A DNA stretch of 33,434 nt from SAR116 cluster bacterium AG-426-A06 (GTDB taxonomy: Bacteria; Pseudomonadota; Alphaproteobacteria; Puniceispirillales; Marisalimonadaceae), in the NCBI GenBank assembly GCA_003210115.1, contig QCNM01000012.1, positions 1-33,434 of the forward strand, in the 5' to 3' direction. How positions within the stretch are numbered: the first letter of the stretch is position 1; every line of letters starts with the position of its first letter. Of this stretch, positions 30,920-33,434 are shown piece after piece. Below the pieces are notes generated by a model, which was not told the origin of the DNA, searched no databases, and saw only the letters and a program-made list of their open reading frames with translations. A program made the position numbers and the translations under genes.

Positions 30920-32170
30920 ATGATTACTATAATGGCTAAATACAAAAAATTAAATGAACAATTGGATAAAGTAACTTATTTCATTATCTTTTTTGAATTT
31001 TTAAAGTTGGGCTGTACATCATTTGGGGGTCCAATTGCTCACATTGGCTTTTTCAGAGAGCATTTTGTAAATAAAAAAAAATGGATGGATGATAAGAATT
31101 TTTTAGATATTGTTTCTTTTTCAAACTTCTTACCAGGACCATCCTCTAGTCAAGTTGGTATGTGCATAGGCTATCTTCAAAAAGGATCTTTAGGAGCTTT
31201 TTTAGCATGGCTAGGTTTTACCTTGCCATCTGCAATGATTATGATTGGATCCGCATACGGTTTATTATTTTATAGTGATTTTTTTACAAATGGTCTTTTG
31301 AGTGGAATAAAGGCATGCGTAATTGTAATAGTCTTTCAAGCAATTTTGGGTATGTCTAAACAATTTTTAAATGATTATAAAAAAATTTTAATAACTATAG
31401 TTACCACATTAATTTTAATTTTTTTTTCAAATAATATTTATCAAATAATTTTAATAATAATTTCGGGAGTTTTAGGAAATTTCTTATTTTATAAAAAAAT
31501 AAATGCAAAAAAAATATCCTTAACTATAGATTATAAACCATTATTTTATTTATTGTTATTTGCAATTATATTAATCATTTTTCCAATAATTAATCAAATT
31601 TACAATTCTGATATTATTTTAATTTCTGACAAATTTTTTAGAGTAGGTTCTTTAGTTTTCGGAGGGGGGCACGTTGTCTTACCACTCTTACAAAATGAAA
31701 TAGTTAATTTTAATTTAATTGATAAAGATACTTTTTTGATCGGTTATGGGTTGGCTCAAATTATTCCAGGCCCCCTATTTACTTTTTCTAGTTTTCTAGG
31801 AACATCAATGGACTTATCACATCACAAAATTCTTTTAGGTATAACTTCATTAATTATGATTTTCCTTCCTTCATTTTTTCTAGTTTTTGGAGCTATGCCA
31901 TATTGGTTAGTTTTAAGAAATATTCCAAAAGTAAAAGCTTTTTTGATTGGAGTTAACGCTTGTGTAGTGGGTTTACTAATATCTGCATTCTATAATCCCG
32001 TAATCACCTCTTCTTTAAATGACTATCAAAGTTTATTTCTTCTTGGCATTTCAATTATTATAATTTTCTTAATCAGAATTCCACAATGGGCATGTGTAAT
32101 AATTGTTGCAGGCATTGGAAAAATAATTGATTTAAATATGTTTAATTTTTCTTTTGACTTTTTAATTTAA
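30920..32170 (+). CDS. ChrA-type (CHR family) transporter, long form
   Basis: A 416-residue inner-membrane protein with two homologous halves. Half one has GCTSFGGPIAHIGFFR (31-46) and FLPGPSSSQVG (70-80), and half two has VGSLVFGGGHVVLPLL (242-257) and QIIPGPLFTFSSFLG (280-294), both standard for chromate exporters of the two-domain class. Whether chromate or sulfate is the true substrate is not known, since many marine relatives have no metal context. Two in-frame starts exist (30920 and 30932); neither has a Shine-Dalgarno sequence, and only 15 bases separate the first from the divergent cytochrome start. Its mRNA is probably leaderless or begins inside the cytochrome gene. Confidence 0.88.
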   Translation: MITIMAKYKKLNEQLDKVTYFIIFFEFLKLGCTSFGGPIAHIGFFREHFVNKKKWMDDKNFLDIVSFSNFLPGPSSSQVGMCIGYLQKGSLGAFLAWLGFTLPSAMIMIGSAYGLLFYSDFFTNGLLSGIKACVIVIVFQAILGMSKQFLNDYKKILITIVTTLILIFFSNNIYQIILIIISGVLGNFLFYKKINAKKISLTIDYKPLFYLLLFAIILIIFPIINQIYNSDIILISDKFFRVGSLVFGGGHVVLPLLQNEIVNFNLIDKDTFLIGYGLAQIIPGPLFTFSSFLGTSMDLSHHKILLGITSLIMIFLPSFFLVFGAMPYWLVLRNIPKVKAFLIGVNACVVGLLISAFYNPVITSSLNDYQSLFLLGISIIIIFLIRIPQWACVIIVAGIGKIIDLNMFNFSFDFLI

Positions 32171-32209: not shown

Positions 32210-32626
32210 ATGGTAACTAAAAATGCTGAAGTTAACACAAATGAAAAAATAGAAGAAATTTCTAGTGGAGCAATGACCAAGGCTGGAAGATTAGCTATGG
32301 AACTTGCTAATGAGAAAAAAAGGTTAAACCAAGAGCTTAAAGAGCTTCAAGCAGAATATGATGAAGTTAAACCAACAACTCCAACAGGAACTAGAGATTG
32401 GTATGTTAAATGGTTATCAATGATCCTTGCAGTTTTAGGAGTTTTTTTAATAAGTGCTTCCTATTCTTTTTATGGTCAAATAACTTATTTTTTAAGTGCT
32501 ATAGGCTGGATTTATGTAGGAATGCAATGGGGTGACAGAGCTATTATGATTGGAAGTGCTGTTACTGGAACAGCAGTTGCAATGAATTTAATTGAAAATT
32601 TGCCTAAATTTTTAAATAATATTTAA
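32210..32626 (+). CDS. Uncharacterised membrane protein with N-terminal coiled coil
   Basis: A 138-residue protein I do not recognise. Residues 26-54 (LAMELANEKKRLNQELKEL onward) look like a coiled coil rich in K, E and L. Hydrophobic segments at about 67-84, 88-106 and 110-128 would make two or three membrane passes, with the coiled coil probably in the cytoplasm. A clear GGAGA ribosome site lies 7 bases before the ATG, and the gene sits 39 bases after the ChrA-type gene, possibly in one transcript. Its stop codon shares TTAA with the convergent lipoprotein gene. Confidence 0.65.
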   Translation: MVTKNAEVNTNEKIEEISSGAMTKAGRLAMELANEKKRLNQELKELQAEYDEVKPTTPTGTRDWYVKWLSMILAVLGVFLISASYSFYGQITYFLSAIGWIYVGMQWGDRAIMIGSAVTGTAVAMNLIENLPKFLNNI

Positions 32627-33117
32627 GTTGATTTTCTACATTTAAAAACATCAGCTATTATTTTAGTCACTTTTTGGTTTTTCTTAACTAAAACATATTC
32701 AGTTTTTGGTATAAAATTATTTTTAGTTTCAACTTTATAGCCTTGTTGATTGACAAAGACTCTTCTCTTTTCTCTGTAATCGTATACGCCAATGGCATTT
32801 CCGCCAATATCGTATGCTCGTTTTTTTAATGTGTTAATTAATTGGTAATAATCAATACTTCCAGAAACAGATAGTCTTATAATGCCAATACAATCTTTAT
32901 TACTTCTTAAATAACTAGTTGAGGTAAATTGAATCTTATTTAATTCTTTTTCTAACTTATCAGACATATAAAAGTTTTCAAAAGCACTCTCTTTTATAAT
33001 TTTAGGTTTAACAGTGACAATGGAGCTAGTTTCAATTTCATTACTAGCATATTTAGTGTTTGTATAACTGCAATTACTAAAAAATAAAAAAGATAATATT
33101 ACTAGAAAATGTTTCAT
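32623..33117 (-). CDS. Putative lipoprotein of unknown function
   Basis: A 164-residue exported lipoprotein. The signal MKHFLVILSFLFFSNC has a lipobox ending at C16. The mature part has a low-complexity linker (about 17-50) and then a domain with IGIIRLSVSG and LKKRAYDIGGNAIGV. That pattern, a beta strand followed by a helix and GGNAIGV, recalls the RcsF/YbjQ-like fold, but the match is weak. Two further cysteines (about residues 76 and 160) could pair. The protein probably sits at the outer membrane. No function is assigned. Confidence 0.65.
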   Translation of the reverse strand: MKHFLVILSFLFFSNCSYTNTKYASNEIETSSIVTVKPKIIKESAFENFYMSDKLEKELNKIQFTSTSYLRSNKDCIGIIRLSVSGSIDYYQLINTLKKRAYDIGGNAIGVYDYREKRRVFVNQQGYKVETKNNFIPKTEYVLVKKNQKVTKIIADVFKCRKST

Positions 33118-33147
33118 ACAATATATACGACAATTTATAAAGCTGTT

Positions 33148-33318
33148 TTAATTACTATTTATTTTAGTAGTTAAATGATTTGGATTTGTCCATACTTCGT
33201 TCTCTATACTGCAACAATCATCAACCACTCTTTTACAGTTTAAACGCTGATAATGTGATTGAACATAAATATATCCTTTAAAACTTGAACAATATGGACA
33301 TAGAATTTTTGTATTCAT
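33148..33318 (-). CDS. Small Cys-rich zinc-ribbon-like protein, 56 residues
   Basis: A short complete gene with ATG at 33318 and TAA at 33148-33150, in the same orientation as the neighbouring lipoprotein gene and ending 30 bases before its start codon. The product starts MNTKILCPYCSSFKGYIYV and contains C7, C10, C28, C35 and C36 (LNCKRVVDDCC). CPYC followed by NCK and CC is a zinc-ribbon layout, with one pair at the N-terminus and a second set after about 18 residues. The frame has regular codon use and ends in a natural stop, so it is probably real. I know of no function. No clear ribosome site lies ahead of the ATG. Confidence 0.6.
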   Translation of the reverse strand: MNTKILCPYCSSFKGYIYVQSHYQRLNCKRVVDDCCSIENEVWTNPNHLTTKINSN

Positions 33319-33434
33319 AAAAATTAATTAACTATTGAATTGACAAGTTCTGTAAGCCTGCAGATGTTAGATTTAATTAATAATATTTCTTTCAATTAAT
33401 ACAATTGGCCTTTGTAATAATATTGAATATTTAA

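Follow-up and report, generated by a model that had tools for sequence, protein, structure and literature searches.

A predicted small zinc-ribbon family of SAR116 bacteria and marine phages, with an altered copy at the edge of a SAR116 contig

Among the tiny zinc proteins of phages are those of the P2 Ogr/Delta group. Com of phage Mu is another (PMC6483171). Both provide a model for how the small zinc-ribbon protein described here could work, and they are set beside it by description only. Haloferax volcanii encodes zinc-finger micro-proteins of under 70 aa with two C(P)XCG motifs, whose function is given as open in the excerpted text, and in 12 of 16 cases deletion led to a phenotype in one or more of the conditions used (Nagel et al. 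2019, PMC6562870). The redox-regulated chaperone Ruc (Rv0991c), as outlined in excerpts of PMC7448276, combines a four-Cys zinc ribbon with a variable tail, about 7-61 residues long. A short hairpin joins two CxxC knuckles in Zn_ribbon_IS1595 (PF12760) and in the other zinc-beta-ribbon families.

The small zinc-ribbon family analysed here has the same two knuckles as PF12760, but it lacks a transposase domain, and the match to PF12760 ends before its CC pair. With the Haloferax proteins, as far as the excerpts describe them, it has in common a size under 70 aa and two Cys motifs; compared by motif only, the SAR116 core differs in having CPYCS and CLxCK without glycine, plus the CC pair. For Ruc, compared by layout only, the excerpts of PMC7448276 describe no invariant CC pair, unlike the family analysed here. 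In the literature, searched by abstracts and passages, nothing apparently describes this family. We treat it as unnamed and without demonstrated membership of any named family, although its mode of action may resemble that of known small zinc proteins.

The window, by which we mean the whole stretch of DNA analysed (33,434 nucleotides, the full length of contig C12), comes from a genome assembly of 1.33 Mb in 111 contigs that is 56.7% complete. An earlier note had reported a short Cys-rich frame near its right edge. We recovered exactly this frame, assigned it to the minus strand, which had been left unstated, and found it complete, with an ATG start and a TAA stop, 116 bases from the contig end (Table 1). 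The encoded protein is MNTKILCPYCSSFKGYIYVQSHYQRLNCKRVVDDCCSIENEVWTNPNHLTTKINSN. All three motifs that had been pointed out, CPYC, NCK, and CC, are present; the letters NCK, however, belong to a mutated CxxC knuckle, whose first Cys is changed to Arg in the window only. The neighbouring lipoprotein gene is also as described, with its conservation beside the small gene limited to the genus; a relative of it has no Pfam match. The window also contains, at 30920-32170 on the plus strand, a gene for a 416-aa membrane protein, presumably of the chromate-transporter type by its look.

Table 1. Positions of the small gene, its motifs, and its neighbours in the window.
Feature	Position	Strand	Remarks
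Small zinc-ribbon family gene	33148..33318	minus	56 codons; residues 1-39, conserved core (33318 down to 33202); remainder, variable tail
First knuckle, C7-P-Y-C10	33289..33300	minus	within the 33148-33318 gene
Second knuckle, R25-L-N-C28 in the window copy	33235..33246	minus	C25 in 27/27 other A1 rows and 51/51 other A4 rows
Invariant CC pair, C35-C36	33211..33216	minus	within the 33148-33318 gene
ArsC-like gene, 3' end	33324..33434	minus	precedes the small gene directly in genus g1; runs off the contig
Lipoprotein-like gene, 164 aa	32623..33117	minus	downstream of the small gene

The small frame almost certainly belongs to a real gene family. The nearest relatives are 84% and 82% identical across all 56 residues, and the single protein matched 34 of 61 genomes at E<=1, with its own genome and weak matches counted, as well as 25 loci in a collection of species genomes. 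A profile search extended this to 75 of 136 genomes of the SAR116 order at E<=0.01. At class level, scattered alphaproteobacteria carry it as well: 12 of 385 genomes matched with profile A2 and 11 of 385 with profile A4, and 2 of 299 matched in a phylum sample, the window's own genome being counted in all three figures. A search of plasmids returned no relatives. The absence of homologues that the earlier note had named as grounds against a gene thus does not hold. Most members are about 45-80 aa long, with 52-57 aa in the window's family; other relatives are open frames of varied length, mostly under 100 aa. A second SAR116 family has longer, more diverged members of about 60-80 aa, with the pattern CPxCG...VHGHGQCAHC..NV.PCCDGE. 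One genome, G069, carries the usual type together with a second, more diverged type (L082, G069:C69:10632-10787; VHGHAQCPVCKTNIDPCCSGE).

The core is under strong purifying selection and the tail hardly at all. Within the genus, pN/pS for residues 1-39 is 0.135 (0.100 without the window row), and over all 28 sequences it is 0.186, whereas the tail gives 0.61, or 0.54 without the window row. With the core ratio at 0.10-0.19, far below a value near 1, the substitution check supports the reading as a real short gene. That the frame arose by chance, or marks an RNA rather than a protein, would fit a short, AT-rich frame at a contig edge, but conservation specific to this frame across families and phages and the low ratio speak against chance, and the stretch 32600-33434 has no Rfam match. 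Because homologues exist, the chance reading is already contradicted, and we give this alternative practically no weight.

The core follows the pattern C-x2-C-x14-C-x2-C-x6-CC-x-G, and the consensus for the SAR116 family of the window is MNTKLPCPYCSSxKGYIYVQSHYQCLxCKRVVDDCCSGE. Conservation was read from two alignments, A1 with 28 rows (the window and 27 others) and A4 with 52 rows including the window; A4 drew on 42 of 84 fetched viral loci, near-duplicates being omitted. In the larger alignment C7, C10, C28, C35, and C36 are invariant (52/52 rows), while C25 and His22 are each present in 51 of 52. Deeper alphaproteobacterial relatives replace His22, with HGD in L096 and HGE in L099. A further Cys follows the GE in many phage copies and in one SAR116 family. 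The proteins are near neutral, with a mean charge of +0.4 in bacterial rows and -1.3 in viral rows, which gives no sign, at the level of composition, of a general nucleic-acid binder.

Structure prediction points to a hairpin. An AlphaFold2 model built with phage rows, which replaced a poor earlier model from 22 close relatives (pLDDT 53), places strands at residues 16-19 and 22-25, between the knuckles, with block pLDDT values of 72/87/87 over residues 1-30 and a whole-model mean of 69.5. From this predicted hairpin, together with the conserved Cys and His22 rows, we infer one zinc on C7/C10/C25/C28, with the CC pair and His22 as an additional thiol feature, and the family fold is very probably a zinc ribbon. 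Fold searches returned zinc ribbons and ribosome entries, none significant: the best Foldseek match was the TFIIB N-terminal domain (E 1.5, non-significant), and the best fold comparison was with YfgJ (Z 2.2, non-significant). A sequence search of solved structures gave nothing below E 0.4.

In the curated family libraries, the proteins stay under the cut-off of every Pfam and NCBIfam model, and matches to PHROGs are weak. Zn_ribbon_IS1595, one of the best hits there, matches 8 of 28 bacterial rows at E<=1, the best at 0.0012, and the best phage row reaches 2.1e-4 with 21.6 bits, under the gathering score of 25.4. The window protein scores 15.7 bits against DUF7385 (PF24110), under the gathering score of 28. 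Weak matches to FYVE, C1, and RING domains were rejected as homology and taken as common Cys spacing. Of the 15 Pfam families that the listing for 28 members gives at E<=1, none is of the Mu Com type.

The zinc-ribbon pattern proposed in the earlier note is supported for the family, but not for the window copy as a working ribbon: one of its four presumed ligands is gone, Ile replaces Gly at position 38, and the ArsC-like gene upstream of it is frameshifted. Codon 25 reads CGT (Arg) in the window and TGT or TGC (Cys) in the relatives compared. Codon 38 reads ATA (Ile) for GGA, a near-invariant Gly, which amounts to two base changes, and codon 6 reads CTA (Leu) for CCA (Pro). After ...IERN, the ArsC-like gene is two bases shorter than in seven relatives, resulting in a premature stop at 33375-33373. 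With a presumed zinc ligand lost, the copy is probably non-functional or nearly so.

These changes could have occurred in the cell, or they could have been introduced by assembly or amplification close to the end of the contig, in which case C25R, G38I, P6L, and the ArsC frameshift would all be artefacts and the gene intact. In favour of such faults, all of the changes fall in the last 290 bases of contig C12, and a normal ratio (0.07-0.10) is seen for the lipoprotein gene, which is farther from the end. Against this, G38I needs two base changes, 7 of 36 other copies are altered too, and the gene has been lost from G010. Because of these altered copies and this loss, decay appears common in the family. 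We lean towards a copy that is impaired in the cell, and regard faults at the contig end as a lesser but substantial probability.

Decay and turnover are seen elsewhere in the window's family. Defining an intact core by a start, the absence of a stop, and six Cys, 29 of 37 matching genomes have one, and 8 of 37, the window among them, have an altered or broken copy; some of these 8 could be sequencing faults. G010 retains both the ArsC-like gene and the lipoprotein gene, and the space between the two holds no recognisable copy. In G031 the copy beside RraA/MatE-type neighbours is decayed (L081, G031:C5) and another, elsewhere in the genome, is intact (L065, G031:C21), a possible case of loss and regain. 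In L027 (1346-3171), a tRNA-Arg gene (1346-1422) is followed by a phage-type integrase (1526-2389) and, about 600 bases after the integrase, by the small gene (3001). By its gene order this row looks like an integrated element or a remnant of one. The integrase of L039 is the same as that of L027, at 78% identity. In SAR116, the gene appears to be accessory: gained, lost, and left to decay.

The neighbourhoods differ between groups. In genus g1 an ArsC-family gene ends a few bases upstream of the small gene (a relative's gene matches Pfam ArsC at 4.1e-13), and the lipoprotein gene lies on its other side; the neighbours are RraA-like and MatE genes in part of g2, and others elsewhere. A conserved operon was rejected on these grounds, and the searches brought up no fixed partner. 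Nor was any neighbour recognised as a metal transporter or metalloregulator. In many genomes of the second SAR116 family (L078, L086, and others), a NifU-like scaffold gene is convergent to the zinc gene, an arrangement not seen in the window's family.

The family extends into viruses. In IMG/VR, scanning with A2 led to 129 confirmed relatives (80 of them listed), and scanning with A1 to 4. These proteins have in common VHGHxQCxxC and the CC-x-G end, and some phage copies carry CPxCG. The contigs bearing the gene are viral by content. Neighbouring proteins were collected as set A5, 88 of 105 listed frames from 18 loci, with frames over 700 aa left out beforehand; among the first 25 of the 93 PHROGs families matched by these proteins are DNA polymerase, integrase, endolysin, helicase, holin, single-strand annealing protein, and major head protein. 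A relative of the DNA polymerase or endolysin lies within 1 kb of at least 17 of 44 distinct viral cores, a lower bound because only 13 query proteins were used. Cultured phages gave no convincing relative, with a best E of 0.8 in one protein search, E 6-7 in another, and no matches in two. An assignment of the carriers to HMO-2011-type phages was dropped: for the polymerase adjoining the gene in L109, the nearest phages are 023Pt_psg01, DSL-LC04, and the Pelagibacter phages HTVC023P and HTVC027P.

The gene family is in all likelihood shared between phages and SAR116 hosts. In a tree of 66 rows, where three SAR116 groups are placed among different phage copies, the SAR116 group of the window forms a single branch (100/99). 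Phage rows L102 and L104 are joined by three members of the second family (98/96), and phage row L105 by others (94/86 with all six, 96/82 within the inner three). Given the starred branches, the phage label must have changed three times or more. The tree is poorly resolved, being built on about 50 columns with 35 of 63 inner branches open, so that any direction of transfer would be one we infer.

Together, the best overall explanation, to which we assign a probability of about 0.5, is a zinc ribbon found in phages and SAR116 that most likely acts as a small regulatory adaptor, with a probably damaged copy in the window. In such a protein, Cys7, Cys10, Cys25, and Cys28 would coordinate a single zinc at the base of a beta-hairpin, the CC pair (35-36) with His22 would pack beside this zinc or make a second thiol or metal site, and the variable tail would stay free. 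The family lives in marine phages and SAR116, and would have moved between them several times.

As to function, we tentatively propose a phage-borne or phage-derived adaptor regulating gene expression; by analogy with other tiny phage zinc proteins, it could dock on RNA polymerase, an RNA, or another protein. A regulatory adaptor fits best because the protein is small, the phage site lies beside replication and lysis genes, and there is no fixed partner. A redox switch or chaperone, in which the Cys-rich site would release zinc and form disulphides on oxidation so that a flexible tail could act, as in mycobacterial Ruc, seems unlikely to us. The four-Cys ribbon with a variable tail is laid out as in the excerpts on Ruc (PMC7448276), the invariant CC pair comes in addition, and in genus g1 the gene follows one of the ArsC family; that neighbour, however, is unconserved outside the genus, the tail is short and poorly conserved, and the phage neighbours are replication and lysis genes rather than stress genes. 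Less likely still is metal handling, with the CC pair, His22, and, in many relatives, the further Cys forming a second zinc or copper site for buffering or delivery. The CC pair, invariant over the 52 rows, the His22 of 51 of them, and the further Cys would suit this role, but no metal transporter or metalloregulator was recognised among the neighbours, and the replacements of His22 in L096 and L099 count against it.

Taking the regulatory adaptor one step further, the family might be kept by uncultured marine phages as a standing tool, probably to switch the expression of host or phage genes between the replication and lysis modules, captured at least three times by SAR116, kept under selection for a time, and then lost, as in the window; we consider this full account doubtful.

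The window copy carries a caution, in that a short frame from a genuine gene family may nonetheless be broken. The family has a clear, searchable signature: two CxxC knuckles with about 14 residues between them, H-x-Q-C at the second, and then, after six or seven residues, a CC pair. Phage proteins that are small and act on host machinery are difficult to detect, and annotation often misses them. The present family is a marker of gene exchange between viruses and SAR116, one of the major ocean lineages, and provides a defined target for biochemistry.
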